The position numbers were made by a program, and so were the translations under genes. Below the pieces are notes generated by a model. The model worked only from the letters and a program-made list of their open reading frames with translations. It was not told the origin of the DNA and made no database searches. Positions 33,754 to 51,195 of a stretch of 64,000 nt of DNA are shown here, piece after piece; position 1 is the first letter of the stretch, and every line of letters begins with the position of its first letter. This stretch comes from Methylophilaceae bacterium LSUCC0401 (GTDB taxonomy: Bacteria; Pseudomonadota; Gammaproteobacteria; Burkholderiales; Methylophilaceae): the NCBI GenBank assembly GCA_024919035.1, contig CP103442.1, positions 310,001 through 374,000 on the forward strand, given 5' to 3'.

Positions 33754-33770
33754 TTGGGAACAAATCCCGA
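33754..33770. promoter_or_regulatory. 17-base palindromic operator upstream of the SulP-carbonic anhydrase operon
   Basis: TTGGGA-ACAAA-TCCCGA, an inverted repeat with one mismatched pair. It is identical at 15 of 17 positions, in the same orientation, to the element at 50762-50778 beside a NarL-type response regulator gene. Its centre is about 59 bases before the SulP start. A regulator-binding role is inferred from conservation and symmetry. Confidence 0.65.
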
Positions 33771-33772
33771 AC

Positions 33773-33792
33773 AATGTATTCTACAATACATT
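33773..33792. promoter_or_regulatory. Second inverted repeat in the SulP leader
   Basis: AATGTATT, a 4-base spacer CTAC, then AATACATT: a perfect 8-base inverted repeat starting two bases after the 17-base palindrome. It may be an operator or the promoter's -10 region (a TACAAT lies inside it, 33782-33787). Confidence 0.4.
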
Positions 33793-33820
33793 CGGTTTAA
33801 ATAAGGTTAAGTGAACATAA

Positions 33821-35356
33821 ATGTTTAAAAATTTAAAGTCAGATTTTTCATCCAGTATCGTTGTTTTTTTTGTTGCCCTCCCCCTGTGCTTAGGGATAGC
33901 ACTGGCATCTAACGCCCCCCTCATGTCCGGTTTATTAGCCGGAATTATTGGAGGTATTGTCGTTGGGTTATTAAGTGGATCTCAGCTTGGTGTGACTGGA
34001 CCAGCCGCAGGATTAACCGTGATTGTTGCCTCATCTATTTTAGTCCTGGGTTCATGGGAAAATTTTTTAACCGCTGTCATTTTGGCTGGAGTTATTCAGT
34101 TTGCTTTTGGTTACTTTAATTTAGGCTTTTTGGCCTACTTTTTTCCCTTATCCGTAATTTATGGGATGTTGTCGGGCATTGGTATTTTAATTATTTTAAA
34201 ACAAATTCCTCACGCGATTGGTTATGACTCTTCTTTTTTCGGTGAGGAAGAATTTGCTCAACTAAATCATGAGAATACATTTTCATCATTACTGAACGCA
34301 TTTAGTAATTTTGATTACTTTTCAGTATTAATTTTTATTGTTTCCATAGCTATCTTGATTTTATGGGAGAAAAAATTAATCAATAAGCTGGATATTTTTA
34401 AAATCATTCAAGGACCAATTGTGGTGGTTTTTTTAGGGGCATTGGTCACCTATTTAAACCAAAAAGGGATTTTAAATTTTAATTTATCACCAGAGCATTT
34501 GGTGAATATCAATGATGGTAAGGCATTTACAGAATATCAATTGTTTAGCATACCCACCGTTGAGAATTTATTAAATATTGAAACCTACAAAATAGCCCTA
34601 TTAATTGCGGTAGTGGCTAGCTTGGAAACTCTACTTTGTCTCGAAGCCACGGATAAACTGGATCCAGATAAAAGAATCAGCCCCCCTAATAAAGAATTGA
34701 AAGCACAAGGGTTAGGAAATGTGTTGTGTGGCTTTGTGGGTGCTTTACCAATTACTCAAGTTATTGTGAGGAGTTCTGCAAATATTAACTTCGGAGCAAA
34801 AAGTAAACTTTCTGCCATTTTGCATGGGGTTTGGCTGTTGGTGGCTATTATATTTTTAATCCCAATCATGTCCCTTATTCCTTTAGCTTCTCTTTCTGCA
34901 GTATTGATTATTGTTGGTTATAAATTAGCTAAGCCTGATTTATTTAAAGAGATGTATCGGTCAGGTATGGAGCAGTTCATACCATTTGCGATTACCATTG
35001 TAGGGATCATTGCGGTTAATTTACTCAATGGTATTATCTATGGACTAATTGCTGGATTATTTTTCTCACTGTATCGAAGTTATAAAAATTCATATGAGTT
35101 AAATGATGCGGTGACCAATAAAAATGGTAACGAATACCATCATATTATTCTTGCCGAAGAAATATCATTTTTTAATAAAGCCAATTTGATAGAAAAATTA
35201 AATGCTATTCCAGAAAATTCTGAGGTGGTGATTGATTTTAAAAATAATAAATACATGGCATTGGATATCAAAAAAACATTAAAAGATTTTAAAACGAATG
35301 CCCAATCAAAAAACTTGAAAATAACTTTTGTTAATAATAAAAATAAGGAGATTTAA
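33821..35356 (+). CDS. SulP-family anion transporter (probable bicarbonate uptake)
   Basis: A 511-residue inner-membrane SLC26/SulP transporter with 10 or more membrane segments over residues about 10-420, starting DFSSSIVVFFVALPLCLGIALASNAP. It holds the family segments GSQLGVTGPAAGLT and GALPITQVIVRSSANI. The C-terminal STAS-like part (about 440-511) is short. Partnership with a beta carbonic anhydrase, whose ATG overlaps its stop by one base, points to bicarbonate rather than sulfate, though the ion cannot be proven from sequence. The pair interrupts the usual yhbY-rlmE junction. Confidence 0.85.
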   Translation: MFKNLKSDFSSSIVVFFVALPLCLGIALASNAPLMSGLLAGIIGGIVVGLLSGSQLGVTGPAAGLTVIVASSILVLGSWENFLTAVILAGVIQFAFGYFNLGFLAYFFPLSVIYGMLSGIGILIILKQIPHAIGYDSSFFGEEEFAQLNHENTFSSLLNAFSNFDYFSVLIFIVSIAILILWEKKLINKLDIFKIIQGPIVVVFLGALVTYLNQKGILNFNLSPEHLVNINDGKAFTEYQLFSIPTVENLLNIETYKIALLIAVVASLETLLCLEATDKLDPDKRISPPNKELKAQGLGNVLCGFVGALPITQVIVRSSANINFGAKSKLSAILHGVWLLVAIIFLIPIMSLIPLASLSAVLIIVGYKLAKPDLFKEMYRSGMEQFIPFAITIVGIIAVNLLNGIIYGLIAGLFFSLYRSYKNSYELNDAVTNKNGNEYHHIILAEEISFFNKANLIEKLNAIPENSEVVIDFKNNKYMALDIKKTLKDFKTNAQSKNLKITFVNNKNKEI

Positions 35357-35979
35357 TGTATAAACATCCGTCAATCGATAGAGATAAGATGACGCCCGCT
35401 GAAGGGTTGCAAATATTAAAAGAAGGCAATCAAAGATTTGTAAATAATTTGAGAGAAAATAAAGACTATCCTTCTTTGCTTGAAAAAACAAAAAATCAAC
35501 AACATCCATTCGTTTCAATTCTAAGTTGTAGTGATTCAAGAGCCCCGGTGGAATTAATTTTTGATCAAGCCATTGGTGATATTTTCAGTGTTAGATTAGC
35601 TGGCAATATTGCCTCTAAAGATGCGATTGGCAGTTTAGAATTTGGAATCAAATATCTGAAAAGTAAACTCTTGGTTATACTGGGACATACCTCATGCGGA
35701 GCAGTAAAAGCGTGTTGTGATCATTTTAAAGACGCCAGCATTACAGATGTTGTGGCAAAGATTACTCCATGCCTTGATCAAGAACAAACAACCGCAGATC
35801 TCAGAAATTCATCAAATGCAGAATTTGTGCAAAATGTCAGCGATTTAAACGTTAAACATCAGATCAATGAGATTTTAGAGCACAGCGAAATTATTGCGGA
35901 TTTATATCAGAAAAATCAAATTTCAATCATTGGCGGCATGTACAACATTGAAAGTGGAGAAGTTCATTTTTTTGAATGA
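35356..35979 (+). CDS. Beta-class carbonic anhydrase
   Basis: A 207-residue zinc enzyme interconverting CO2 and bicarbonate. Zinc ligands and the catalytic dyad are seen in SCSDSRAPVE (Cys, Asp, Arg) and GHTSCGAVKA (His and Cys). An AAGGAG precedes the ATG, which overlaps the SulP stop. No signal peptide, so it is cytoplasmic. With the SulP protein it would load the cell with inorganic carbon. Confidence 0.94.
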   Translation: MYKHPSIDRDKMTPAEGLQILKEGNQRFVNNLRENKDYPSLLEKTKNQQHPFVSILSCSDSRAPVELIFDQAIGDIFSVRLAGNIASKDAIGSLEFGIKYLKSKLLVILGHTSCGAVKACCDHFKDASITDVVAKITPCLDQEQTTADLRNSSNAEFVQNVSDLNVKHQINEILEHSEIIADLYQKNQISIIGGMYNIESGEVHFFE

Positions 35980-36012
35980 TAATATCACTTGAAATCAAAG
36001 TTCAAGGGATAG

Positions 36013-36633
36013 GTGTTGAAAAAAATAAGAACCAAAACAAATTGGATTAAAGAACATTTAAGTGATGAGTATGTTCAAAAAGCGCAACACGATGGCTATC
36101 GATCGAGAGCCGCTTATAAATTCCTTCAAATCCATGAACAATATAAGCTGATCAAGCCCAATCATCGTGTTGTTGATCTGGGCTCAGCACCGGGAAGCTG
36201 GTCCCAGGCCATCAGCTCTCTCTTGTCTGATGAAGGAAAAATTTATGCAATTGATTTACTGCCCATGGATCCGGTAAAAAACACGACTTTTATTCAAGGA
36301 GACTTCAGGGATGAAGCGATTCTGCATGATTTGGAAAAAATCATCGAGAATAAGCCGGTTGACCTTGTAATTTCGGATATGGCCCCCAACATTAGTGGTA
36401 ACAAGGTAAGAGACCAAGCCATGATTAATGATTTAAATGAGTTAACTTTAGAATTTGCTCAAGATTGGTTGAAACCAAAAGGTAATTTTCTAGTCAAGAC
36501 ATTCATGGGTTCAGGTTTCGATGAGTTTGTGAAAAAATTAAAGAACCATTTTAGTAAAGTGATTATAAAAAAACCAGATTCATCGAGGGACAGAAGTGCA
36601 GAATTATTTTTAATTGGGCTTGAAAAACTGTAA
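36013..36633 (+). CDS. rlmE: 23S rRNA (uridine2552-2'-O)-methyltransferase
   Basis: A 206-residue FtsJ/RrmJ SAM-dependent methyltransferase acting on U2552 of the 50S A-loop. Seen: YRSRAAYKFLQI with the first catalytic Lys, VVDLGSAPGSWSQ (SAM site), LVISDMAPNISG with the catalytic Asp, and GNFLVKTFMGSGFDE with the second Lys. GTG at 36013 or TTG at 36016 may start it; an AAGGGA (36003-36008) favours the TTG slightly. It forms the conserved rlmE-ftsH pair. Confidence 0.95.
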   Translation: MLKKIRTKTNWIKEHLSDEYVQKAQHDGYRSRAAYKFLQIHEQYKLIKPNHRVVDLGSAPGSWSQAISSLLSDEGKIYAIDLLPMDPVKNTTFIQGDFRDEAILHDLEKIIENKPVDLVISDMAPNISGNKVRDQAMINDLNELTLEFAQDWLKPKGNFLVKTFMGSGFDEFVKKLKNHFSKVIIKKPDSSRDRSAELFLIGLEKL

Positions 36634-36667
36634 AATAAATTTAAATCACATATTTTAAGGAAAAATA

Positions 36668-38566
36668 TTGAATAACAACACATTAAAGACGATTTTAGTA
36701 TGGCTTTCTATAGGGGCGCTGATGATGATGATATTCAATCAGTTTTCACCCACCAACCGTTTTGAAACGAAGCTAGTGTATTCACAATTCATGGAGCAAG
36801 TAAAATCTGGGAACATTTCCAAAGTCGAAATTGATGGAAGAAATATCAATGGCATTACATCAGATGGCAAAAGATTTTCTACTTATTCCCCAACGGATCC
36901 ATGGATGGTGTCTGATTTACTCAAAAATAACGTGATAGTTGAGGCGAAGCCTGAGGAAAAACAATCCATGTTAATGAGTATTTTCATTTCTTGGTTCCCC
37001 ATGATTTTGTTGATTGGTGTTTGGATCTTCTTTATGAAGCAAATGCAGGGCGGTGGAAAAGGTGGCGGTCCATTTTCGTTTGGAAAAAGTAAAGCGCGCC
37101 AACTTGATCAAGCAACCAATAAAACGACCTTTGCTGATGTCGCTGGGTGTGATGAAGCTAAAGAAGAGGTCAGTGAGTTAGTTGATTTTTTAAGAGATCC
37201 AAATCGTTTTCACAAGTTAGGCGGTCGGATTCCTCGTGGCGTTCTCATGGTTGGCCCTCCAGGAACGGGAAAAACTTTATTGGCCCGAGCTATTGCGGGT
37301 GAGGCCAAAGTTCCCTTTTATACAATCTCTGGCTCAGACTTTGTGGAAATGTTTGTTGGTGTTGGTGCAGCTCGAGTTCGAGATATGTTTGAACAAGCAA
37401 AGAAAAACTCCCCTTGTATCGTTTTTATCGACGAGATTGATGCCGTTGGAAGACACCGTGGTGCAGGCATGGGGGGCGGTAATGATGAACGCGAACAAAC
37501 CTTAAATCAGTTGCTTGTTGAAATGGATGGATTTGACGCAAATTCTGGAGTGATTGTGATTGCAGCAACCAACCGAGCGGACGTTTTAGATAAAGCGTTA
37601 TTACGTCCTGGTAGGTTTGACCGCCAAGTGGCTGTATCTCTTCCTGACATTAAAGGCAGAGAACAAATTTTAAATGTTCACATGCGAAAAATTCCGAGTG
37701 ATGTCGATGTGAAGGCAGATATTATTGCTAGAGGAACACCAGGATTCTCTGGGGCTGATCTAGCTAATTTGGTAAATGAAGCTGCATTATTTGCGGCACG
37801 ACGCTCACACCGAACAGTGACCATGCAAGATTTTGAAGATGCCAAAGATAAAATTTATATGGGACCTGAGCGTAAATCTTTAGTGATGCAAGAAGATGAA
37901 AGAATTAATACGGCTTATCATGAATCGGGTCATGCCATTGTTGCTAAATCTTTACCAAAAGCTGATCCCGTGCATAAAGTGACCATTATGCCAAGAGGTT
38001 GGGCACTTGGATTAACCTGGCAATTACCAGAGTTTGATCGCTTTAGTAACTTTAAAGACAAGATGCTCGAAGAAATTTCAATTTTATTTGGGGGGCGTAT
38101 TGCTGAAGAAATTTTTATGAAGCAAATGTCTACTGGAGCTTCAAATGATTTTGAACGTGCCACTAAATTAGCCCGGGATATGGTCACAAAATATGGAATG
38201 TCCGATAAGCTTGGGACAATGGTTTATAGTGATAATCAAAATGAGTCTACCTTTGGTATGCCATCAAAATCGATCTCTGAGGCGACGCAACAAAAAGTCG
38301 ATGCTGAAGTGAGAAGAATTCTGGATGAACAATATGCGGTGGCTCGTAAAATTCTTGAAAAAAATAAGAAAAAAGTTGAGGCCATGGCAAAAGCTTTATT
38401 AGAGTTTGAGACGATTGATGCAGATCAAATCAACGACATCATGGCGGGTAAAAAAGTAAGAATACCGACACCAAACCTAAGTAATGGGTCATCCACAACT
38501 AACAAAAAAGGATCAGGTTCTGGACCTGCTGTAACTTCTCCACAACCGTCTGCAAAATCAAAGTAA
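36668..38566 (+). CDS. ftsH: ATP-dependent zinc metalloprotease FtsH
   Basis: A 632-residue membrane AAA+ protease. Two N-terminal membrane segments (about 5-25 and 100-120) flank a periplasmic part. Walker A is GPPGTGKT, Walker [12 protein letters not shown], the pore loop FVEMFVG, and the zinc site HESGH lies near residue 418. The Ser/Gly/Pro-rich C-terminal tail is normal. TTG start at 36668 after an AAGGA site. Part of the conserved rlmE-ftsH-folP-glmM order. Confidence 0.98.
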
Positions 38567-38595
38567 AATAAGGTAGTTTTAACACTACCTTATTT
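38566..38595 (+). other. Perfect 12-base hairpin ending at the folP start codon
   Basis: AAATAAGGTAGT (38566-38577), a six-base loop, then ACTACCTTATTT (38584-38595). The 3' arm ends one base before the folP ATG. It begins inside the ftsH stop codon. The only A/T-rich tail is the arm itself, so it is a weak terminator candidate. It could also control folP translation, since folP has no visible Shine-Dalgarno. Confidence 0.65.
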
Positions 38596-39405
38596 ATGTC
38601 ATTACAAAAACTACTGAAGAAGAAAAAGCCTCTGATTATGGGGGTGTTGAATGTCACTCCGGATTCATTCTCTGATGGGGGTCAATTTAATACGACCGAA
38701 AAAGCTTATGATCATGCCCTTCAATTAATTGATGAGGGTGCGGATATCATTGATATTGGGGGAGAGTCTTCAAGACCTGGCGCTATTCCTGTTTCGTTTG
38801 AAGATGAAATGGAGAGAGTTCTTCCAGTGGTAAAGCTTTTAAAAAAGAAATCTTCAATACACATTTCTGTAGACACCTATAAGTCAAAATTGATGCAGTT
38901 GGTTTTAGACGAAGGGGTAGATTTAATTAATGACATTAAAGCATTGACCGGGGAAAATTCCCTGCAAGTTATAAAATGCTATGAACATGCTATGGTTTGT
39001 ATGATGCATATGCAAGGGGATCCGCTTAATATGCAAAATAATCCCAGCTATGAAAATGAGATTCATTTAGAAATCATAAAATTTTTTAAAAATAGACTGG
39101 ATGTATGTTTACAATCTGGCATTAGCCTTGAAAGATTTATATTAGATCCAGGTTTTGGTTTTGGCAAAACGTTTGAGCATAATTGGAAAATATTTCAAAA
39201 TATGGAGACCTTTAACAAACTAAACTATCCCTTATTAATTGGTCTTTCACGAAAGAGCATGTTAAAAAAAATTATGGGTGATCGTGAGGATTGGCTTGAT
39301 GAAGCAACTGGTTTTTTCTCATCTAAGCTCGTAGATAAGTCCCCCATGATTATAAGAACACACAATGTAAAAGTAACTAAAAAATATCTGGAAGATAGAA
39401 AATGA
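38596..39405 (+). CDS. folP: Dihydropteroate synthase
   Basis: A 269-residue TIM-barrel enzyme condensing p-aminobenzoate with the dihydropterin diphosphate in folate synthesis. Seen: IMGVLNVTPDSFSDGG, the pterin-binding DIGGESSRPGA, HISVDTYKS, LILDPGFGFGKT-like segment (ILDPGFGFGKT) and LIGLSRKSM. The ATG sits directly behind a strong hairpin and lacks a ribosome site. It overlaps glmM by four bases. Confidence 0.96.
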   Translation: MSLQKLLKKKKPLIMGVLNVTPDSFSDGGQFNTTEKAYDHALQLIDEGADIIDIGGESSRPGAIPVSFEDEMERVLPVVKLLKKKSSIHISVDTYKSKLMQLVLDEGVDLINDIKALTGENSLQVIKCYEHAMVCMMHMQGDPLNMQNNPSYENEIHLEIIKFFKNRLDVCLQSGISLERFILDPGFGFGKTFEHNWKIFQNMETFNKLNYPLLIGLSRKSMLKKIMGDREDWLDEATGFFSSKLVDKSPMIIRTHNVKVTKKYLEDRK

Positions 39406-40733
39406 GAAAGTATTTTGGAACCGATGGTATCCGAGGACGAGCAGGAAAATTTCCAATTACAGTTGATTTTTTTACTAAGCTTGGATTTGCGGCAGGAAAG
39501 GTATTAACAAAAAAATTCCAATCCGCAAGTAAACCCAAAGTCATTATTGGTAAAGATACCCGTGTGTCTGGGTATATGCTTGAGTCAGCCCTTGAAGCCG
39601 GTTTTTCTGCGGCTGGAGTTGACGTTTACTTAACCGGTCCTATTCCAACTCCCGCAGTTGCCTATTTGACTAAAGCCATGAGAGCACAGATAGGGGTGGT
39701 TATTTCCGCCTCTCATAATCTCTATCAAGACAATGGTATCAAGTTTTTTTCGAGCACTGGCACAAAATTAGATGATGAGATTGAATTAGAAATAGAGGCA
39801 ACCATTAATGCAATCGAGAATCTTGATTCTGAGATTATTGGTAAAGCAAAACGTGTGGAGGATGCTCAAGGCAGATACGCTGAGTTTTGTAAAAATACCT
39901 TTCCAAAAGATCTATCCCTTGAGGGATTGAAGGTTGTGATCGATTGTGCGCATGGGGCAACATACCAAGTTGGACCAAAAGTTTTTAATGAATTAGGTGC
40001 TGAAGTGATCGCGATTGGGGTCAGTCCTGATGGAAGCAATATTAACCAAGACTGTGGTTCAACGGATTTAGATTTATTGATTACAGAAGTTCGAAAAAAT
40101 AAAGCAGATTTGGGCATAGCATTTGATGGCGATGGAGATCGTGTGTTGATGGTGAGCGCTCAAGGACAAATTATTGATGGCGATCAGCTTTTATATATTA
40201 TTGTGAAAGCTGAACTCATTTCAGGCTCATTCCAAGGCGGTGTTGTTGGGACTTTAATGACAAACTTAGCGATGGAAGAGAATCTTAAAGCTAATCATGT
40301 GTTATTTGAACGATCAAAAGTGGGCGATCGCTATGTTTCTGAATTAATGGAAGAACGACACTGGGATTATGGCGGAGAAAATTCTGGCCATATCTTATTA
40401 AAGAAACATCACAGTACCGGAGATGGAATCATCTCTGCGTTACAGGTGCTCAAAGCCATTCAACAGCGCCAAATAAGCTTTGATGAGGCCGTTGCTGAAA
40501 TAGAATTGTACCCACAAATCTTATTAAACATTGCCATAAATGAAGCAGTTAATCTGGATGCTGAGCATGTACAAGAGGCGGTAAAAAATGCTGAGAAAAT
40601 CATGCATGATCAGGGAAGAGTGTTGTTAAGAAAATCAGGCACAGAGGCAAAGATTAGAATTATGACAGAGTGTGCTGATCGAGACCTTGCCATGAAAGCG
40701 GCTGAGGCTATTAAAAAATCAATCTTTGGCTAA
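39402..40733 (+). CDS. glmM: Phosphoglucosamine mutase
   Basis: A 443-residue alpha-D-phosphohexomutase that makes glucosamine 1-phosphate for peptidoglycan and LPS. Seen: the start KYFGTDGIRGRAG, the phosphoserine loop VISASHNLYQDNGIKFF, the metal loop FDGDGDRVLMV, the sugar loop GGENSGH and the C-terminal phosphate-binding LLRKSGTEAKIRIM. Last gene of ftsH-folP-glmM, and convergent with pstB, two bases away. Confidence 0.97.
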   Translation: MRKYFGTDGIRGRAGKFPITVDFFTKLGFAAGKVLTKKFQSASKPKVIIGKDTRVSGYMLESALEAGFSAAGVDVYLTGPIPTPAVAYLTKAMRAQIGVVISASHNLYQDNGIKFFSSTGTKLDDEIELEIEATINAIENLDSEIIGKAKRVEDAQGRYAEFCKNTFPKDLSLEGLKVVIDCAHGATYQVGPKVFNELGAEVIAIGVSPDGSNINQDCGSTDLDLLITEVRKNKADLGIAFDGDGDRVLMVSAQGQIIDGDQLLYIIVKAELISGSFQGGVVGTLMTNLAMEENLKANHVLFERSKVGDRYVSELMEERHWDYGGENSGHILLKKHHSTGDGIISALQVLKAIQQRQISFDEAVAEIELYPQILLNIAINEAVNLDAEHVQEAVKNAEKIMHDQGRVLLRKSGTEAKIRIMTECADRDLAMKAAEAIKKSIFG

Positions 40734-40735
40734 TA

Positions 40736-41515
40736 TTAACCAAATTTACCGGTAATATAATCTTCGGTTTCTTTTTTAGAGGGGTTGGTAAAAATGATAT
40801 CCGTCTCATCAAATTCAATCATTTTGCCCAAATACATATAGGCCGTGTAGTCAGAAATCCTCGCTGCTTGCTGCATATTGTGGGTCACAATTAAAATGGT
40901 TAATTTTTTCTTTAACTCACTCATGAGCTCTTCAATATTAACGGTTGCGATTGGATCCAAAGCTGATGTTGGCTCATCAAATAACATGATTTCAGGATCA
41001 GTGGCTAGCGCCCTGGCAATACATAATCTTTGCTGCTGACCGCCTGAAAGGTTATAAGCCAGGTCTTGCAGTCGATCTTTTACTTCATTCCACAGTGAAG
41101 CTCCTTTTAAGGCTTCTTCCACCTTATCATCAAGCAGACGTTTATTGTTTTCACCGCGAACTCTCAGGCCGTAGGCCACATTTTCATAAATAGACTTAGG
41201 AAAAGGATTTGGTTTTTGGAAGACCATACTGATCCTCATCCTGACCTCAATGGGGTCAACTTTTTTGTCGAGAATATTTGTATTGTCGGGGTATAAGATA
41301 ATCTCACCGGCATATTTATTCCCGGGATACAGGTCATGCATTCGATTAAATGATCTGAGGAACGTTGATTTGCCACAGCCAGATGGACCAATCAGAGCAG
41401 TAATCCTTTTTTCATACAAAGGGATGTTGATATCTTTAAGGGCGTGTGTTCCGTCTGCGTAATGAAAATTAAATTCTTTTGATTCAGCTTTTATTATTTC
41501 TTGTTTTTTTACCAT
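40736..41515 (-). CDS. pstB: Phosphate ABC transporter ATP-binding protein PstB
   Basis: A 259-residue ABC ATPase of high-affinity phosphate uptake. Seen: Walker [18 protein letters not shown], the PstB-typical [11 protein letters not shown] and [25 protein letters not shown] signature [16 protein letters not shown] and Walker [14 protein letters not shown]. The frame is open to an earlier ATG at 41578, but that lies inside pstA. The ATG at 41515 has an AGGAA seven bases upstream and is chosen. Last gene of pstSCAB; phoU is not adjacent. Confidence 0.96.
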
Positions 41516-41525
41516 AGCGAAATTC

Positions 41526-42464: not shown

Positions 42465-42467
42465 GAT

Positions 42468-43391
42468 TTAATACCTTTCTGTAAATTTTTTTCGAGTCCA
42501 TTGACCCAAAATATTTAAAGATAAAGTCATAATAAATAATACGATACCAGCTGCAAAGATACTTTGGTAACCAATCCCACCATGCTCCAAATCTCCAAGG
42601 GCAACTGAGACAATATAAGCTGTAATTGTGGCGGCACTCTCAACGGGATTGAAGGTGAAATTAGGTTGCTGCCCAGCCGCAATAGCGACAATCATGGTCT
42701 CACCAATACCCCGACTGATGGCTAGAATATATGCAGCAATAATTCCGGACAAGGCCGCTGGCATGACCACCGTTTTAGCAGTTTGAAATCGAGTCGCTCC
42801 CATGGCGTAGGATCCCTCTCTCATCGCCATTGGGACAGCCCGCATGGCATCTTCAGCAACCGAAGCAATGTAAGGGACAATCATAATTCCCATGACAATT
42901 CCCGGTCCAAGCATATTGAACGTTGGTAAATCCGGATAAATTTTTTGCAATAAAGGCGTGACCAGTAAAAGAGCGAAATAGCCAAACACAACGGTTGGAA
43001 CTCCTACTAAAAGTTCCAATATCGGTTTAACGGTTTCTCTTAATCTATGCGAAGCGAATTCAGAAAGGTAGACTGCGGTAATGGTTCCAAGCGGTATAGC
43101 AACCAAGAGCGCTATTCCAGTAATGGTCACTGTTCCTGCCACTAGCGGGAGAATGCCATAATTTTTAATCTCAAAATTTGGGGTCCAAATGGTTGAGGTT
43201 AAAAATTCTTTGATTGAAACGGCTTCAAAAAAGGGTATAGATTCGGTGACAAGAATAAAAACAATTCCAAAGGTGATTAATATGGCAATCAGCCCTGACA
43301 ACATTAAGGCCCATTCAATTAATCTTTCAACAAAATTTCGTCGAATATTTTTTGCCAGAGCCTTACTAACTGTAGATTTTGTTTTGGACAT
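42468..43391 (-). CDS. pstC: Phosphate ABC transporter permease PstC
   Basis: A 307-residue inner-membrane permease with about six membrane segments. The EAA loop is MREGSYAMGATRFQTAKTVV, and ISRGIGETMIVAIAAGQQPN is a PstC-type segment. Partner of PstA in the channel. Separated from pstS by 115 bases containing a strong hairpin with a T-run. Confidence 0.95.
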   Translation of the reverse strand: MSKTKSTVSKALAKNIRRNFVERLIEWALMLSGLIAILITFGIVFILVTESIPFFEAVSIKEFLTSTIWTPNFEIKNYGILPLVAGTVTITGIALLVAIPLGTITAVYLSEFASHRLRETVKPILELLVGVPTVVFGYFALLLVTPLLQKIYPDLPTFNMLGPGIVMGIMIVPYIASVAEDAMRAVPMAMREGSYAMGATRFQTAKTVVMPAALSGIIAAYILAISRGIGETMIVAIAAGQQPNFTFNPVESAATITAYIVSVALGDLEHGGIGYQSIFAAGIVLFIMTLSLNILGQWTRKKFTERY

Positions 43392-43455
43392 GTTTTAAAT
43401 AAAACTATTAAAAGCGCAAATAATTATTACACATAAATGGATCATCAGGATTAAA

Positions 43456-43481
43456 AAAAAAGGGGAAATTTCCCCTTTTTT
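43456..43481 (-). terminator. Terminator or attenuator between pstS and pstC
   Basis: A perfect palindrome whose arms are AAAAAAGGGGAAA and TTTCCCCTTTTTT, followed on the minus strand by two more T residues. It lies 25 bases after the pstS stop. Partial termination here would make more PstS than PstCAB, as needed for a periplasmic binding protein. Confidence 0.85.
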
Positions 43482-43506
43482 AATATGTCCACAAATCGAT
43501 AAAATC

Positions 43507-44496
43507 CTAGTCCGTTGCTTTGTCTAGGATTTCTTTGACTGATAATCCGATGGCAGGACCATCTTTAAAAGCGGTTCCTGTTTTTAAAGATTTGTAATGA
43601 GCATTGATCGCGTCATACTCTGCTTTTGAGAAAGGAACATAGCCGACTTCTTTGGATAGTTTTCCTGCATTTTTGAGGTAAAACTCAACAAATTTTTTCA
43701 CTTTAGGATCAAAGGCCGCTTTGGCTGCATTTAAATAAATAAACAAAGGTCTTGATAAAGGGTTGTAGGATCCATCCATAACCGTCTCTATTGATGGCTC
43801 GATAAACTTACCCTCCTTATTTTTGATTTTAACGGCATCGAGCTTATCTTTATTTTCAACATAGTACGCAAGACCAAAATAACCGATACCACCTTTGTCA
43901 CCCGCAACCCCTTGAACTAAAACGTTATCATCTTCGGATGCGGTAAAATCGCCGCGAATTGATTTAGATTTTTCAATAATGGCTTCGGTGAAATAATCAA
44001 AGGTCCCTGAATCTGCACCTGGGCCATATAATTTCAGGGGTTGATTTGGAAAACCTTCACGAATTTGATTCCAGTTCTTGATTTTTCCTTGAGCGTCAGG
44101 GCCCCACATTTTTTTTAACTCAGCTGGAGACATTTCTTTGGCCCAATCATTACCCTTATTTACCACGACCGTAAGCGCATCAAAAGCTACTGGGATTTCA
44201 ATGAAAGATATGCCTGCCTCACTACAGGCTTTCGCTTCTTTATCTTTAATTGGACGGGATGCATCAGAAATCACTGTTTCCCCACGGCAAAATTTCTTAA
44301 AACCACCACCGGTGCCGGAAACGCCTACCGTAACTTTAATACCTGTTTCCTTTTGAAACTCTTCAGCAACAGCTTCAGTAATCGGATATACGGTTGATGA
44401 ACCATCAATGGCAATAATGTCAACGGCCAAAACTGATGAAGTGAATGCGCTAGTTGCCAAGGTTGCTAAAACTGTTTTTTTAAGGGTTGAGACCAT
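43507..44496 (-). CDS. pstS: Phosphate-binding periplasmic protein PstS
   Basis: A 329-residue periplasmic binding protein with a signal peptide ending near Ala23 (SSVLA-VDI). Phosphate-binding segments seen: IDGSSTVYPITEAVAEEF, GVSGTGGGFKKFCRGE, ISDASRPIK and GADSGTFDYFTEAI. The type is the longer PstS found in many marine proteobacteria. The start is 53 bases from a Pho box, so it is expected to be induced by phosphate starvation through PhoB, which is not in the window. Confidence 0.95.
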   Translation of the reverse strand: MVSTLKKTVLATLATSAFTSSVLAVDIIAIDGSSTVYPITEAVAEEFQKETGIKVTVGVSGTGGGFKKFCRGETVISDASRPIKDKEAKACSEAGISFIEIPVAFDALTVVVNKGNDWAKEMSPAELKKMWGPDAQGKIKNWNQIREGFPNQPLKLYGPGADSGTFDYFTEAIIEKSKSIRGDFTASEDDNVLVQGVAGDKGGIGYFGLAYYVENKDKLDAVKIKNKEGKFIEPSIETVMDGSYNPLSRPLFIYLNAAKAAFDPKVKKFVEFYLKNAGKLSKEVGYVPFSKAEYDAINAHYKSLKTGTAFKDGPAIGLSVKEILDKATD

Positions 44497-44533
44497 TCAT
44501 AACTCCTGATAAAGATTAATAATAATTTCGCTC

Positions 44534-44567
44534 ATTATATTGTTAAATTATGACAGATTTATGACAA
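44534..44567 (-). promoter_or_regulatory. Pho box and -10 of pstSCAB
   Basis: On the minus strand TTGTCAT-AAAT-CTGTCAT (44567-44550) matches the 7+4+7 PhoB site. A perfect TATAAT (44539-44534) follows after exactly 10 bases, the spacing of PhoB-dependent promoters in which the box replaces the -35. The same design precedes the porin gene at 47333. Confidence 0.9.
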
Positions 44568-44626
44568 TTCTCCCTTTAACAAAAACAGGTTAAAATAACG
44601 CAAATTATTATATTTAGATTAAAAAA

Positions 44627-45731
44627 ATGGATTCAGAACAACTCAATCAATTAAAACAATCACTCACCGAAATCAGTGACCGATTCTCAGCCTTGCGGAG
44701 CTATCTTTGACCTTGATCATAAAAAAAATCAATTAAAAAAATTAGCTGAGCAACAAGAAGATCCAAAAATCTGGGAGGATAATGCACTGAGCCAGAAAAT
44801 TGGAAAAGAAAAAAGAATTCTTGAGGACACCATTCAGGAGTTTGAAAAATTAGATACAGCCATTGGGAATAACCAGGAATTGTTTGAATTAGCTCAAGCT
44901 GAGGATGATGATGCCACCTTGCAAGACCTGTTGAAGGATGCAGAAAAACTGGAGAAACAGCTCAATCAATTAGAATTTAAACGAATGTTCTCTAATCCGC
45001 TGGATCCTAATAATTGTTTTATTGATTTTCAATCAGGCAGCGGTGGGACTGAGGCACAGGACTGGGCCAATATGTTGTTACGCATGTATCTTCGATATAG
45101 TGAAGAAAAGGGATTCAAGGTGGAGGTGATGGAAATTACCGAGGGTGAGGTGGCAGGGATTAAAGGGGCGACCATCAAAGTCATTGGCGATTACGCCTAC
45201 GGTTACTTTCGTACCGAAACTGGCATTCATCGATTAGTACGAAAATCTCCATTTGATTCAGGAAGTCGAAGACATACCTCTTTTGCTGGGGTAAACGTCT
45301 ATCCTGAAATCGATGAGTCTGTGGATATTGAAATTAACCCTGCTGATTTAAGAATTGATACTTATCGGGCTTCGGGCGCAGGGGGACAGCATATTAACAA
45401 AACTGATTCTGCTGTTAGAATTACGCATGAACCCAGTGGTGTGGTTGTGCAATGTCAGAATGATCGGTCACAGCACAGAAATAAAGCACAGGCGATGGAT
45501 ATGTTGAAGTCACAGCTCTATCGAATTGAGATGGAAAAGCGGAATCAGGAAAAAAAGGCGCTAGAAGACGCCAAGTCGGATATTGGTTGGGGGCATCAAA
45601 TTAGAAGCTACGTGTTAGATCAATCGAGAATTAAAGATTTACGTACTGGGGTCGAGGTAGGAAACACACAAGGGGTGTTAGATGGGAATCTGGATCCTTT
45701 TATTACAGAGAGTTTAAAACAAGGGGTATAA
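44627..45731 (+). CDS. prfB: Peptide chain release factor 2 (programmed +1 frameshift)
   Basis: RF2, recognising UAA and UGA, 367 residues after frameshifting. The first 27 codons (44627-44707) begin [10 protein letters not shown] and end at an in-frame TGA (44708-44710) in the classic CTT-TGA-C slippery site. A GGAG lies just upstream as the internal Shine-Dalgarno. Reading resumes in +1 frame at GAC 44709 and runs to 45731. The catalytic [16 protein letters not shown] (GGQ) is present, as is the SPF-type anticodon-like tripeptide region ([15 protein letters not shown]). The frameshift autoregulates RF2. Followed by lysS, a common pair. Confidence 0.95.
44704..44711 (+). promoter_or_regulatory. 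Programmed frameshift site of prfB
   Basis: TAT CTT TGA C with the in-frame stop at 44708-44710, preceded by GGAG (44694-44699 region) at the short distance typical of RF2 frameshift sites. Low RF2 lets the ribosome slip from CTT to TTT. Confidence 0.92.
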
Positions 45732-45732
45732 G

Positions 45733-47244
45733 TTGGAAAATAATGACATTCAAGCGGTAGACGAAAATACCATTATTCAAGAAAGACGAGCCAAGCTTCA
45801 GGAGTTGAGACAGACGGGAGTCGCTTTTCCAAATCATTTCAAGCCGGAGCATCTTGCGCAAACGTTACATCAGGATTATGACGCCATCGATAAGCCGGGT
45901 TTGGAAGAAAAAAATATTCATGTCGTTGTTGCGGGACGCATGATGCTAAAACGGGTGATGGGTAAAGCAAGTTTTGCCACCATCCAGGATGGTTCGGGAC
46001 GCATTCAATTATATGTCGCACGTGATCTGGTCAATAATGAGCAAAATCCAGAACTCTATTCTGCATTTAAAAAGTGGGATATGGGTGACATTATTGGGGC
46101 AAAGGGCAAGTTATTTAAAACCAACACCAATGAATTAACCATTGAAGTGACGGAGATTATCCTGCTCACAAAATCATTAAGACCACTTCCCGAAAAGTTT
46201 CATGGACTGCAAGATCAAGAGATGAAGTATCGTCAGCGCTATGTCGATCTGATGGTGAACCAGGACACCAAAGATACCTTCTTAACCCGGTCCAAAGCCA
46301 TGCAATCGATTCGAGAATTTATGGGGAACAATCATTTTCTCGAAGTTGAAACACCAATGCTCCATCCCATTCCAGGAGGTGCAAGTGCAAAACCTTTTAA
46401 GACTCACCACAATGCGTTGGATATGGAAATGTTTTTACGCATCGCACCAGAACTTTATCTAAAGCGTTTGGTTGTCGGTGGATTTGATCGTGTTTTTGAG
46501 ATCAATCGAAATTTTAGAAACGAGGGATTAAGTGTGCGACATAATCCTGAATTTACCATGATGGAGTTTTATGCGGCTTATGCTGACTATCAGTGGCTCA
46601 TGACTTTTACCGAGGATTGTATTCGTGCCTGTATCCAAAGCTGTGGTCTAGATCTCAAACTCACTTATCAAGAAAAAGAAATTGATTTTGCTAAAGATTT
46701 TGATCGGCTAACACTGGTTCAGGCCATTGAAAAATATAGCCCTCAATATAAAGAGCAGGATTTGCAAAATGTTGAATTTCTATCCAAAGAAGTGCAGCGT
46801 TTAGGTGAGGATTTACCAACCAATGCAACACGGGGGTCATTACAACTGGCTTTGTTTGAAGCGGTTGCCGAAGAGCATTTGTGGCATCCAACCTATATCA
46901 TTGATTATCCGACCGAGGTATCACCATTGGCTCGTGCTTCAGATACTGATCCAAGCATCACAGAGCGATTTGAATTATTTATTGCGGGTCGAGAAATTGC
47001 TAATGGATTCTCAGAATTAAATGATCCGGAAGAGCAAGCAGCTCGATTTAAAAAACAAGTCGAACAAAAAGAAGCGGGTGATGATGAAGCCATGTTCTAT
47101 GATGCTGATTTTATTCGTGCGCTTGAATATGGTCTGCCGCCAACGGGTGGATGTGGTATCGGGATTGATCGTTTGATTATGCTCATTACCAATAAACCAA
47201 GCATCCGAGATGTTATTCTCTTCCCCCACATGAGGCCTGAATAA
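45733..47244 (+). CDS. lysS: Lysyl-tRNA synthetase (class II)
   Basis: A 503-residue class IIb synthetase. The N-terminal OB-fold anticodon-binding domain (about 60-150) shows [29 protein letters not shown]. The catalytic domain has motif 1 ([16 protein letters not shown]), motif 2 ([20 protein letters not shown]) and motif 3 ([12 protein letters not shown]). TTG start at 45733 behind AAGGGG inside prfB's last codons. Confidence 0.97.
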
Positions 47245-47269
47245 TCTTTAATTTTATCATTTTATAAAA

Positions 47270-47303
47270 TTGTCATAATAATGTCACATTTGATCTCCAT
47301 AAT
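47270..47303 (+). promoter_or_regulatory. Pho box and -10 of the phosphate-type porin gene
   Basis: TTGTCAT-AATA-ATGTCAC (47270-47287) fits the PhoB 7+4+7 site, and CATAAT (47298-47303) follows after 10 bases. The arrangement is the same as upstream of pstS. An additional inverted pair around the ribosome site (ATCTCCAT / ATGGAGAT, 47293-47328) could fold the leader over the GGAG. Confidence 0.88.
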
Positions 47304-47332
47304 TCATGTTAAGAATTATATGGAGATCTTAA

Positions 47333-48703
47333 ATGAAACTTAAAAAACTAACTACGGCATTGATGTTGACTGGTTTAGCCGGTCTTCCTTTAGCGTCATT
47401 TGCTGACTCAACCGAAGATTTAGTGAATGCGCTGGTTACAAAAGGTGTGTTAACTGAAGAAGAAGGCGCCTTACTCGCAAAAAACAGAACCAAAGAAAAG
47501 AGTTCTGAAGCAAAAGTCAAAATGAGTAAAAAAGGTATTGAAATTTCAAGTGCTGACGATGCCTTTACCATGCAAATCGGCGGACGTTTACATGCAACGC
47601 TAGCTGAACATTCTTATGGTTCCTTGGGTAATAATGAAGAAGATCCTATTGATGGAACTGAAATCAGACGAGCCCGACTCTATGCCAAAGGTAAGCTCTA
47701 TAAAAAGTTTGGCTACATGGCTGAAGTGGACTGGGGTGGCGATAAAGTGGGTGTGAAAGATTTTTTTGGTACCTATAATCCAAACAAAAATTGGGAACTT
47801 ACATTTGGTAACCAAAAACACGCCTTCAGTATGGAAGTTCAAGAGAGTTCTAACGATATTATGTTTGCTGAGAGATCTTTAGTTTATGGTATATCCGTTC
47901 CACATTTTGACCGAGCGGTGGGTATTAACTTAAAAGCGATGGGTGAGACTTGGAACGTACAAGGTGGTTTATACGGTGATGGGGTAACTGCATCAATTGA
48001 TAAAGATAGTTCTAGCGATCAGCGCCATGAAGGCAAAGGTGCGGCAATCAGAGGTACCTGGAACCCAATCCTAGAAAAAGATCGTATGGTAATGGTTGGG
48101 GGTAGCTTAGGGTACCGTAAAGCAAGTGATAGCAACGAGGTAAATAACGGTAAGGATCATAAATTTGCTTATAAAACAACCAACTTTTCTGAATTAAGTG
48201 TGGTCAGTTCAGGAACTAGTTTAGAGCGCGGAAATAGTTTCAAGATGGGAATCTTAGAACTTGCCGCCATGAATGGCCCTTTCTCATTCCAGTCTGAAAT
48301 CAGCAGAGGAACCGTTGAGCGTAATGATGGGAAACCTGACTACGACGTAAGTGCCTACTATGCACAAGTGGGCTGGGTGTTAACGGGTGAATCCAGAACG
48401 TATAAAGCGACTGATGGTGAATTTAAGCGTCTCAAGCCATCAAAAAACTTTGACCCTGATAAAGGAACGTGGGGTGCTTGGGAGGTTGCTTTAAGACATG
48501 ATGGCATTGATCTAGACGATGCAAACATTTCTGGAGGTGAAGCTAAGCGTATGACTCTAAATCTAAACTGGTACCTCAATGAAAACATGAGACTGCTTGC
48601 GGGTTATGAAAGATTCTATGATCTTAATAAGCTGAAGAGTGATGATGGAACAGATTTAGATCATATGGATGTATTCCAGGTTCGTGCGCAGTGGGCGATC
48701 TAG
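47333..48703 (+). CDS. Phosphate-selective porin (OprO/OprP family)
   Basis: A 456-residue outer-membrane beta-barrel with a signal peptide cleaved near Ala24 (ASFA-DST). A short N-terminal helix with Leu/Lys/Glu repeats (about 27-60) precedes the barrel. MQIGGRLHATLAEH, ADWGG-like EVDWGGDKVGVKDFF, FGNQKHAFSMEVQESS and the C-terminal VRAQWAI (aromatic-poor but barrel-like end) match the porin O/P family. The Pho box upstream and nearby pst genes support anion or phosphate diffusion under starvation. Selectivity itself is not provable here. Confidence 0.88.
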   Translation: MKLKKLTTALMLTGLAGLPLASFADSTEDLVNALVTKGVLTEEEGALLAKNRTKEKSSEAKVKMSKKGIEISSADDAFTMQIGGRLHATLAEHSYGSLGNNEEDPIDGTEIRRARLYAKGKLYKKFGYMAEVDWGGDKVGVKDFFGTYNPNKNWELTFGNQKHAFSMEVQESSNDIMFAERSLVYGISVPHFDRAVGINLKAMGETWNVQGGLYGDGVTASIDKDSSSDQRHEGKGAAIRGTWNPILEKDRMVMVGGSLGYRKASDSNEVNNGKDHKFAYKTTNFSELSVVSSGTSLERGNSFKMGILELAAMNGPFSFQSEISRGTVERNDGKPDYDVSAYYAQVGWVLTGESRTYKATDGEFKRLKPSKNFDPDKGTWGAWEVALRHDGIDLDDANISGGEAKRMTLNLNWYLNENMRLLAGYERFYDLNKLKSDDGTDLDHMDVFQVRAQWAI

Positions 48704-48738
48704 TTTAGATGTAAATAAAAATTCTCCTATAATTTTTA

Positions 48739-48770
48739 AAACCTGACTTTTTTAAGTCAGGTTTTTTTTT
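48739..48770 (+). terminator. Rho-independent terminator of the porin gene
   Basis: A perfect 11-base stem (AAACCTGACTT / AAGTCAGGTTT) with a TTTT loop, then a T-run to 48770. It overlaps the last codons of the convergent histidine kinase gene. Confidence 0.92.
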
Positions 48771-50079
48771 GTACTTTTATAGTCAATCTAAATTTATTAT
48801 TGAGGGTGTGATATTGCAAAACGCCATTGTATTTCTTTATCCTTTGTTCAATACCAATTAAACCAATCCCCTTTTTGTGAGCAGTGTTTGGCTTTTTTAA
48901 CAACCCATCGTTTTCAATTTTGTAGGTTATAAATTTTCGGTCATGATCGAGACTGATACGAACATAGGTGGGCAGTGAATGCTTTTTGATATTGGATAGG
49001 GTCTCTTGAGTGATGCGATAAAAATCGGTCTGCATTTTTTTTGGAATACTTTTTACATTGATTTTGTAATCAATATTTTGAATGTTGACGTTGGCTAATG
49101 ATTGATTAATTAAATGTTCAAGCGCTCCCTCAAAACCAAGCTCATCAATCATGGATAAATTCATTTTTTTGATCAACTCTCGGATCGATTCATTGATATT
49201 CTGAGAAATTTTAATCACCTCAGAAAATATTTCGTTTTTTTTCTTTGTTGACTTTGTAAGCTGCCCCGTGCGTGAATGTATTTGAATCGAGGCTAAGTCT
49301 TGCGCCAGGTGATCATGCAGGTCATGTGAGATCATGATTTTTTCTTGTTCTTGAACGTCGAGTATTTTTTGATTTAACTGATTAATGGCCTTGTCATTGG
49401 CCTTTAATTTATGGATCACTTTACTTAAATGAAAACGAATGGTTTCAAACTCACTGATGGATATTTTTTCTAGCTTGATGTTGAATTGTCCTGAGCTCAC
49501 ATTAGTGAGTGCATGAATAATATTATCTATGGGTACTAATGTCTGAGTAAAGATCATGAGAATGGATAAATTAATAAAAATGACAACAAAGAAAACCACT
49601 TCTAAAAAAGCTAAAAACTCAATCCAAATGATTTGGTGGTCATAGTCTAAATTACTTTCAATGACAATAGACCCAATGTTGCTTTGGGTGTTTGAGACAT
49701 TGACAATTCTTAAGAAATTTTCAGCTTTATCATCAAATCCATAAATGCTTTTAAACCAACCTGGTGGGGAGATTTTTAAATTTAAGTTATCACTACTCTT
49801 GCTTAATACCTCACCTTTCGTATTCAGAACTTCAATTTTAAGGTGATGGAGTTTTTTTAAATTATTAAGGTCTTTGACAAATGCAAACTCGGTGAGATTA
49901 TCAAAACTTTTGCGATTACTTAAAGTGGATATGATCGCAAATTCTGCCAGATCAATCGATGAATTGATATCCTCGCGAATATTTTCTTTGGTTTGAAAGT
50001 AACTCAAGAACAGAGCAATTAAAAAACCCACTAAGATAATTAGGTTTAAGTAGATGAGTAGTTTTTTCTTTAGGCTCAT
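48757..50079 (-). CDS. NarL-family sensor histidine kinase
   Basis: A 440-residue membrane sensor kinase. Segment 1 (about 7-27) and segment 2 (about 155-178) flank a periplasmic sensor of about 125 residues with no recognised fold. A HAMP-like linker and coiled coil follow, then a HisKA_3 box SHDLHDHLAQDLASIQIH with the phospho-accepting His, and an HATPase region (ITQETLSNIKKHS, GIGLIGIEQRIKKY). This is the NarX/DegS/UhpB type, not PhoR. It starts directly after the response regulator stop. The signal is unknown. Confidence 0.9.
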   Translation of the reverse strand: MSLKKKLLIYLNLIILVGFLIALFLSYFQTKENIREDINSSIDLAEFAIISTLSNRKSFDNLTEFAFVKDLNNLKKLHHLKIEVLNTKGEVLSKSSDNLNLKISPPGWFKSIYGFDDKAENFLRIVNVSNTQSNIGSIVIESNLDYDHQIIWIEFLAFLEVVFFVVIFINLSILMIFTQTLVPIDNIIHALTNVSSGQFNIKLEKISISEFETIRFHLSKVIHKLKANDKAINQLNQKILDVQEQEKIMISHDLHDHLAQDLASIQIHSRTGQLTKSTKKKNEIFSEVIKISQNINESIRELIKKMNLSMIDELGFEGALEHLINQSLANVNIQNIDYKINVKSIPKKMQTDFYRITQETLSNIKKHSLPTYVRISLDHDRKFITYKIENDGLLKKPNTAHKKGIGLIGIEQRIKKYNGVLQYHTLNNKFRLTIKVQKKT

Positions 50080-50712
50080 CTAAATGACGATATTATTTTT
50101 GAGGGTTAATGAGAACAGTTCATAGTCTGTTTCAATATCAAGCTTAGATTTGATGATGGCTAAATTATTAGCCACCGTTTTTTTTGATATAAATAAAGTA
50201 TCCGCAACTTTCTCCATTTTGTCACCAGAGGCAATCATCTTTAAAATATCTAGTTCGCGCGAGGTTAATGAGGCTAGTTTTTTATCATAACTTTTTTTAT
50301 TTTCAATATTGGCTTTTAATTTTGGGCTTATAAAAATACGTTTATTTAAGGCAAATTCGATCGCAGCAAATAAATCTTGAGTTAATGCATTTTTTGAAAC
50401 AAATCCAAGCACACCAATGTGAATAGCTTGATCAATTAAAACTGGATTGTCATGCATGGTCATAATAATAATTTTTTGTTCAGGATTTCTTTTGAGAATT
50501 CTTTTTGAGGCTTCTAAGCCTCCATAGCCTTCCATGGTGATATCCATCAATATAATATCAATCGGCTGCTCGAGACGGCTTGTATAAAATCGATACGCTT
50601 CCTCACCGCTGGAGACATTGTCAATAACTGTATAGGAGACTTTAGTTTCAAGAAGAGTTTTGATCCCTTCACGAATAATGTCGTGATCATCCACAATTAA
50701 AAAATTTACCAT
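50080..50712 (-). CDS. NarL/FixJ-family response regulator
   Basis: A 210-residue regulator. The receiver domain shows LIVDDHDIIREGIKTLL (acidic pocket), the phosphorylation Asp in DIILMDITMEGYGG and the switch Lys in GFVSKNALTQDL. The C-terminal LuxR-type helix-turn-helix shows LTSRELDILKMIASGDKMEKVADTL followed by SKKTVANNLAIIKSKL. First gene of the pair with the kinase. A 17-base palindrome 50 bases upstream of its start is the likely self-binding site (inference). Confidence 0.93.
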   Translation of the reverse strand: MVNFLIVDDHDIIREGIKTLLETKVSYTVIDNVSSGEEAYRFYTSRLEQPIDIILMDITMEGYGGLEASKRILKRNPEQKIIIMTMHDNPVLIDQAIHIGVLGFVSKNALTQDLFAAIEFALNKRIFISPKLKANIENKKSYDKKLASLTSRELDILKMIASGDKMEKVADTLFISKKTVANNLAIIKSKLDIETDYELFSLTLKNNIVI

Positions 50713-50738
50713 AGTGTCATTCTAATAAGGATTATCAA

Positions 50739-50757
50739 AAATATGAAATACATATTT
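50739..50757. promoter_or_regulatory. AT-rich inverted repeat upstream of the response regulator gene
   Basis: AAATATG, a 5-base spacer, then CATATTT, a perfect 7-base inverted repeat between the 17-base palindrome and the response regulator start. Possible promoter or operator; no partner protein can be named. Confidence 0.3.
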
Positions 50758-50761
50758 TGCC

Positions 50762-50778
50762 TCGGGACCAAATCCCGA
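50762..50778. promoter_or_regulatory. 17-base palindromic operator between response regulator and secreted-protein genes
   Basis: TCGGGA-CCAAA-TCCCGA, a perfect 6-base inverted repeat with a 5-base spacer. Identical at 15 of 17 positions to 33754-33770. Its centre is about 72 bases before the secreted-protein ATG and about 57 bases before the divergent response regulator ATG. A -10-like CATAAT lies at 50800-50805. Confidence 0.7.
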
Positions 50779-50841
50779 TACATTGGATTTGTTATTTTGC
50801 ATAATGCTCTCACTAACATATTTTTTTAAGAGGAGAAAATT

Positions 50842-51195
50842 ATGAAAAAGTTAATCTTAGCAACATCAATTTTATTTGCAGGCGTCGCTTCTGCTGAAAA
50901 TTTTAAATGTAATGAAGTACTCGGTCAAAGTTTCTGTGAGGATGCCGATCATAAACTGGTTTACAAATTCAGCTTGAATGAGAAAGACCAGAATGTCGCG
51001 TTATTAAAATACGACACTCAAAATGAGCTCGTGGATAAAGAAAATTTAAGAAACTGTAATGTGATTAACAACAGCAACTGGTCTTGTGAATATCATGTTA
51101 AAGGACGTAAATTACACAAGTCCAACTTCTCAGCGGTGAAGAAGATTGTGATTCAAATGTCTGAAGGAACTCAGCTAGCTTCTTACATGAAGTAA
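50842..51195 (+). CDS. Small secreted protein with four cysteines, unknown function
   Basis: A 117-residue protein with a clear signal peptide (KKLILATSILFAGVASA, cleavage near residue 18). The mature part of about 99 residues has four cysteines (FKCNEVLGQSFCED, RNCNVI, WSCEYH), suited to two disulfides in the periplasm. No family is recognised. AGAGGAG precedes the ATG. It stands alone between the two-component pair and tadA, has its own strong terminator, and shares a 17-base palindrome with the SulP operon. That context suggests it is an output of the two-component system. Confidence 0.8.
   Translation: MKKLILATSILFAGVASAENFKCNEVLGQSFCEDADHKLVYKFSLNEKDQNVALLKYDTQNELVDKENLRNCNVINNSNWSCEYHVKGRKLHKSNFSAVKKIVIQMSEGTQLASYMK

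Follow-up and report, generated by a model that had tools for sequence, protein, structure and literature searches.

The stretch analysed here, 64,000 nucleotides of the genome of Methylophilaceae bacterium LSUCC0401 (contig CP103442.1, positions 310,001 to 374,000; hereafter the window, numbered from its first letter), holds two closely similar palindromes. One lies upstream of sulP, the first gene of an operon for a SulP-family transporter and a carbonic anhydrase, and the other between the gene for a NarL/FixJ-type response regulator (RR), designated RR(c), and that for a small, presumably secreted protein. Judging from genome comparison, both palindromes are probably operators for dimers of NarL/FixJ-type response regulators, with RR(c) as the likeliest binder. 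What the comparison of sequences shows is the operator class and its link to one kind of regulator.

Two palindromes and their link to NarL-type regulators

The two elements are:

33754..33770, + strand: operator-like palindrome at sulP, TTGGGAACAAATCCCGA, with GGGA and TCCC arms constant in four of four sulP promoters
50762..50778, no strand assigned: operator-like palindrome between the regulator and secreted-protein genes, TCGGGACCAAATCCCGA, kept in three of three genomes with RR(c)

As stated in a preliminary description of this DNA, the two 17-mers have the same orientation and are identical at 15 of 17 positions, and they lie 59 bases (sulP) and 72 bases (secreted-protein gene) before the respective ATG codons, counted from the palindrome centres. 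All six symmetric arm pairs are matched in the palindrome at 50762-50778 and five of six in that at 33754-33770, and the conserved part is GGGA-N5-TCCC. Without mismatches, the pattern TYGGGANCAAATCCCGA was found only at these two sites in the 1,307,234-base genome, with two further places at two mismatches. The earlier remark that there is no other copy therefore holds for the exact string but not for the degenerate core TNGGGA-N5-TCCCNA, a third copy of which lies at position 1221647 of this genome (G000:C1:1221647). This copy sits between the converging ends of dps-like and peptidase-like genes (named by eye), and no promoter was seen near it; we therefore treat it as a probable chance occurrence. 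The other palindromes of this form in that scan were inside genes or without explanation. Within the window alone, with up to three mismatches allowed, four matches were found, compared with a mean of 1.75 in shuffled sequence; a count of four was attained in 11 of 100 shuffles. The raw count is not significant and the window test is weak by itself, and so significance was sought in conservation and in family-wide association.

The comparison covered 31 genomes of the genus, which we take to be the marine OM43 group of the family Methylophilaceae, and 187 genomes of the family. Close SulP orthologues are present in four of the 31, namely G000 (this genome), G023 (96% identity), G002 (81%) and G012 (78%), the remaining SulP matches in the genus, apart from one at 47% in G006, being weaker (23-43% identity). 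All four carry the palindrome at sulP (TTGGGAACAAATCCCGA, TTGGGAACATTTCCCGA, TAGGGAACAATTCCCTA in G002, and TAGGGATCAATTCCCGA); the GGGA and TCCC arms are invariant, whereas the spacer and flanks vary. In each case exactly 11 bases separate the palindrome from a downstream TACAAT or TACAGT box. Orthologues of RR(c) were found in G023 (93%) and G012 (74%), with other matches in the genus at 43% or less. Of the 31 genomes, those in which the secreted protein was found are again G000, G023 and G012. In these three the palindrome at the regulator locus (TCGGGACCAAATCCCGA twice, TCGGGATGATATCCCAT in G012) retains both the GGGA and TCCC cores and the 21-base gap to a CATAAT box. A SulP-carbonic anhydrase pair at 47% was also seen at locus L111 (G006:C129), on a contig whose other genes appear by eye to be of another phylum and which is probably contamination of the G006 genome bin.

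The family-wide association was assessed with a regulator of G003, RR(d), as the query against the 187 genomes. The search listed 28 new loci, of which 24 were retained after exclusion of four copies from the genus. Over the 24 loci there were 23 copies with the spacing of 5, GGGA-N5-TCCC; no other spacing between 2 and 11 gave more than two, and none of five control words exceeded four occurrences at any spacing. At least one copy was present at 20 of the 24 loci, as well as at three of three RR(c) loci and two of two RR(d) loci, the latter (G003 and G029) having two sites each before the adjoining TonB-like gene. No copy was found at 27 loci of another NarL-type regulator of the genus, RR(a), or at nine other loci with weak matches.

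A scan of the same 187 genomes for exact TCGGGA-N5-TCCCGA returned 41 sites in 31 genomes. At least 19 of these have a regulator of this kind no more than 1.5 kb away, where a generous estimate gives about 0.5 expected; the regulators counted were those among the matches listed in the RR(d) search plus the one in L304. For twelve of the 19 the distance to the regulator is between 1414 and 1427 bases, and in the seven of these 12 loci where a kinase gene was seen beside the site (G061, G064, G065, G072, G073, G074 and G139) the site stands right before that gene. For other exact sites, such as those of G033, G059, G060, G183 and G184, no clear functional tie was seen. Inverted half-sites at a fixed spacing in promoter regions, together with this association with a regulator gene, are what would be expected of a NarL/FixJ operator, and the sequence evidence supports a palindrome that acts like an operator tied to this kind of regulator, far above chance.

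Among 59 regulators whose recognition helices were compared, each one with GGGA-N5-TCCC at its locus carries a KT-[VAI]-A-N helix (SKKTVANNLAIIKSK in RR(c), SPKTVANKLALIKEK in RR(d), SQKTVANYYTMIKQK and similar in the family), and RR(a) has RTVGT. A tree of the regulators unites RR(c) with RR(d) (support 99/95) and places a group of genus regulators, designated RR(b), as their sister.

The genes beside these regulators in relatives narrow the assignment of a two-component system that had been called unassigned. The family sites stand before kinase-regulator operons, PepSY-like genes (G052, G053 and G056) and TonB-like genes (G003, G029 and G180), and some are near beta-propeller-like genes. 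The regulators of relatives adjoin genes with a likeness to PepSY proteins, TonB receptors, PQQ-type beta-propellers and a PQQ (pyrroloquinoline quinone) alcohol dehydrogenase. The kinase operon of G138 comes after a partial gene that, among NCBIfam models, best matches the PQQ methanol/ethanol dehydrogenase family, at 378.6 bits for a curated cut-off of 480; the beta-propeller, PepSY and TonB matches were also below curated cut-offs, with one generic model of beta-propeller repeats as the exception. For the PepSY-like protein encoded behind the G052 site, a match (4.5e-84) was found to PDB entry 9vy3, one of eight entries of the same sequence, which from the entry name and the accessible part of a review (PMC11845868) we infer to be the lanthanide-binding Lanpepsy of Methylobacillus. 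No PQQ alcohol dehydrogenase or lanthanide genes were seen beside RR(c) between positions 30000 and 55000 of the window. Elsewhere in this genome a cobalamin riboswitch (RF00174) precedes a TonB-receptor-like gene (L101:301-480, G000:C1).

Promoter context and proposed mechanism

The genes and putative promoter elements around the two palindromes are:

33782..33787, + strand: putative -10 box TACAAT, 11 bases past the sulP palindrome, a gap kept in four of four genomes
33821..35356, + strand: SulP-family anion transporter, bicarbonate presumed (PF00916, 1.5e-59)
35356..35979, + strand: carbonic anhydrase, Pro_CA family, beta class (PF00484, 4.7e-39; PDB 1ddz)
48757..50079, - strand: sensor histidine kinase of HisKA_3 type, presumably membrane-bound (PF07730, 2.8e-06)
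50080..50712, - strand: NarL/FixJ-type response regulator RR(c), recognition helix SKKTVANNLAIIKSK (PF00072, PF00196)
50719..50724, - strand: putative -10 element (TAGAAT) for the regulator operon (TTCATA-17-TAGAAT; ATTCTAAT kept in three genomes)
50800..50805, + strand: putative -10 element (CATAAT) for the gene of the secreted protein, lying 21 bases past the palindrome, kept in three of three genomes
50842..51195, + strand: small presumably secreted protein of 117 amino acids, without a Pfam family, in three of 31 genus genomes

The SulP protein matches the SulP-type transporters 6ki1 and 5da0, both of which are named "sulfate transporter" in the PDB. The predicted structure of the secreted protein is of low confidence, with a mean pLDDT (predicted local distance difference test) of 55. 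At the sulP promoter no sigma-70 hexamer pair was found, and the palindrome occupies the place of the -35 element. The gap to the -10 box is about one helical turn longer at the secreted-protein gene than at sulP (21 versus 11 bases); counted from the -10 boxes, the palindrome centres lie near -42 and near -32, respectively, both close to polymerase. At the regulator operon the TTCATA-17-TAGAAT pair was found once, for a shuffle mean of 0.9. Two other classes of element were considered and rejected. An extracytoplasmic-sigma promoter at sulP (GGGAAC with a TCTAC-like -10) was dropped because the site of the secreted-protein gene has the same arms with ten more bases to its -10 box. The LysR-type box is T-N11-A, and the arms of the palindromes do not fit it.

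We infer that RR(c) would partner the kinase encoded at 48757-50079 and that, on a presumed signal, the phosphorylated RR(c) dimer, rather than a paralogue, would bind the two half-sites of each palindrome. It would then occupy the site that separates its own operon from the secreted-protein gene, and sit over the -35 position of the promoter of the sulP-carbonic anhydrase operon. There it would most likely activate rather than repress, because this promoter has a good -10 box and no -35. The sensor could thereby be tied to bicarbonate uptake, to the interconversion of CO2 and HCO3-, to the secreted protein and to the synthesis of the system itself. For a methylotroph with a small genome, such an arrangement would supply a candidate regulator of the operon for SulP and carbonic anhydrase, and could link growth on methanol to carbon supply.

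G002, the paralogue RR(b) and rival explanations

Several observations weigh against the operator reading, or against RR(c) as the binder. Many of the 24 family loci belong to a single genus and are nearly identical to one another, and four of the 24 lack GGGA-N5-TCCC in the stretch covered. The reversed control of the exact scan gave 18 matches in the same 187 genomes. At the genus RR(b) loci the GGGA form is present in only two of 16 (1.5 kb covered on each side), and RR(b) regulators lacking the site also carry KT-[VA]-[AS]-N, so that the helix alone is no predictor of the site. The tree program flags long branches at the join of RR(c) and RR(d), which may be a long-branch artefact. Among more distant SulP relatives, 80 of 554 confirmed were covered, and the 79 loci besides L174 (the G023 contig) showed no GGGA-N4 to N7-TCCC, some of them covering less than 300 bases upstream; a single poor match to the site, with one mismatch, was found there. 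Finally, two clear operators in the whole genome would make a very small regulon.

A further observation of this sort comes from G002, a genome 94% complete in three contigs, the relevant one of 1.30 Mb. G002 retains the sulP site (TAGGGAACAATTCCCTA) but lacks an orthologue of RR(c) (best match 38%), and nothing in it matches the secreted protein. RR(a) and RR(b) are the sole proteins of G002 with a GerE-domain match, and its RR(b) bears the same KTVAN recognition helix as RR(c). The preliminary description had named, ahead of the analysis, the presence of the motif in genomes lacking the regulator as evidence against its proposal. G002 is such a genome, and the idea that the motif is confined to genomes with the adjacent regulator is not borne out. 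What stands of the proposed operator for the adjacent LuxR-type regulator is the operator-like character and the association with this kind of regulator; exclusivity does not. On the sequence evidence the operator reading thus seems good in kind and is weakened for RR(c) specifically. Since G002 holds RR(b) with the KTVAN helix, a handover between paralogues could account for its sulP site.

Other features of G002 were noted in passing. Its sulP-carbonic anhydrase pair directly follows lysS-like and porin genes (L103:2348-8110), the place at which the kinase-regulator pair stands in the window. A further site, TAGGGAATAATTCCCGA, at L104:5125-5141 (G002:C3:607624), has an 11-base gap to a TATAGT box and precedes a short frame whose product, judged by eye, resembles a small secreted protein; the region has a tRNA gene on one side and a second SulP-like gene on the other. 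TNGGGA-N5-TCCCNA also occurs near thiS/thiG-like genes (by eye) in G002 (L102:4101), where a short frame runs in the other direction, and in G011 (L112:2657), G016 (L113:2610) and G026 (L119:2399).

RR(b) itself appears to have sites of a related form. In this genome its gene (G000:C1:465397-465975) is beside TonB-like receptor and kinase genes, and in each of G000, G001 and G013 three GGA-N5-TCC palindromes lie near RR(b), between PepSY-like and TonB-like genes that are divergent and were named by eye (L323:2632-3020, which is G000:C1:461131-461519; L324:2425-2803; L327:2786-3153). Five of the nine are exactly TAGGA-N5-TCCTA, and dinucleotide shuffles of these clusters gave means of 0.02 to 0.04 with a maximum of 2. 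Of the AGGA/TCCT pairs in seven TonB-side stretches, 11 had the spacing of 5 (AGGA-N5-TCCT) and a single one had any of the other spacings from 2 to 9. Related strings are GAGGAAAAATTCCTGA, upstream of the G002 TonB-like gene, and TAGGATATATTCCTA, before a beta-propeller-like gene in the G003 and G001 loci (L335:1501 and L347:1501) and also present once each in G005 and G013. The three palindromes beside RR(b) are likely to be its own operators, and the paralogues seem to share one geometry and to differ by one outer base. Two findings count against such a sister code. Exact TAGGA-N5-TCCTA is not enriched across whole genomes (three copies versus three for the control in G000, and 15 versus 14 over seven genomes), and some copies are inside genes, so that only the clustered ones support it.

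These sites bear directly on the explanation that the sulP palindrome is bound mainly by RR(b), or by both paralogues, the link to the adjacent regulator then being indirect cross-talk. G002 favours it, as do the KTVAN helix of RR(b) and the presumed RR(b) sites, which have the same spacing and in some cases one TCCC arm. However, the presumed RR(b) sites of this genome are AGGA/TCCT (two) and AGGA/TCCC (one), whereas the sulP and RR(c) sites have GGGA/TCCC in both arms, and each of the three genomes in which RR(c) was found has the site between it and the secreted-protein gene. We consider this explanation unlikely, if the most serious of the alternatives. Binding of the palindrome by a transcription factor from some other family, with the regulator gene simply among its targets, is very improbable. 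A palindrome by itself names no family, a position over the -35 element would suit a repressor too, and 19 of the 41 exact sites have none of the listed regulators within 3 kb, which also weighs against RR(c) and its kind; yet the sites cluster at one kind of regulator and are absent from RR(a) loci, and the accessible text on DosR (PMC2275270) documents a LuxR-family regulator with GGGA/TCCC arms. Least probable of all, to the point of being hardly credible, is that the repeat is due to chance or acts as an RNA hairpin or terminator rather than as a DNA operator. The raw window count and the genomic copy between converging genes would fit, but the palindromes are conserved in four and three genomes, and no intrinsic terminator (a GC-rich stem followed by a T run) was found at either place, for which reason a terminator or hairpin was rejected. 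Moreover, the sites are upstream of conserved -10 boxes and should therefore be outside the transcripts of sulP and the secreted-protein gene.

With RR(c) retained as the likeliest binder, a broader scheme can be put forward tentatively, as one that we think may well prove wrong. Regulators of the methanol/lanthanide kind in this methylotroph family might read a shared GGA-N5-TCC code in which the outer G or A separates paralogues, and in the present lineage of small genomes one paralogue might have been rewired from alcohol or metal genes to inorganic carbon, coupling sensing of the outside to bicarbonate uptake. On the main operator reading, too, a bicarbonate-uptake operon would be under a type of switch that in relatives stands beside genes for alcohol oxidation and metal uptake.

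Comparison with known systems

RR(c) shares with NarL the DNA-binding domain family PF00196. The half-sites of the NarL heptamer and of other NarL-family operators differ from GGGA/TCCC. No paper on a GGGA-N5-TCCC motif was found by titles and abstract openings, a search mostly outside whose coverage lie the subscription journals, and the literature searches listed no experiment on these regulators.

The sensor kinases and LuxR-type or orphan response regulators MxaY/MxaB and PedS2/PedR2, as described in the accessible parts of PMC5018670, PMC12997753 and PMC11845868, resemble the present system in composition, and the regulators of relatives studied here adjoin PQQ alcohol dehydrogenase-like, PQQ-type beta-propeller-like, TonB-like and PepSY-like genes. 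The likeness is one of gene context, and the targets here differ, being sulP, carbonic anhydrase and the secreted protein. Those parts of the three papers give no DNA motif, and the review among them (PMC11845868), as far as its accessible text goes, states that the mechanism governing the PedH/PedE switch is still unknown. If the regulators considered here are of that kind, a concrete DNA motif beside the genes makes the question testable.

Among the documented operators considered, the nearest are the DosR/DevR box of mycobacteria and the ACTU motif of CrbR. The former, TTSGGGACTWWAGTCCCSAA, is presented in the accessible part of PMC2275270 as the motif of a LuxR-family response regulator, that is, a GGGA...TCCC palindrome read by a regulator of this family. 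In a sequence comparison RR(c) also matched 3c3w, a structure of DevR (7.6e-16). However, GGGAC-N4-GTCCC amounts to GGGA-N6-TCCC, as against a spacing of 5 at both window sites, and GGGA/TCCC at spacing 6 occurs twice in the 24 family loci. The bacteria, the sensor and the target genes also differ, and like arms are not proof of the same system. The ACTU motif of CrbR in Pseudomonas fluorescens, according to the available portion of PMC5715377, is likewise the target of a LuxR-type response regulator and an inverted repeat, though an imperfect one; in the acs promoter it spans -52 to -36 and is needed for activation. It differs in serving acetate-use genes and in its core, GAC-N4-GTC in the sequences of Table 4 of that paper, a core that neither window site has. 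Because its spacing or core differs from those of DosR and ACTU, we file GGGA-N5-TCCC, a candidate defined by sequence, as a new operator for regulators whose kind is already known.

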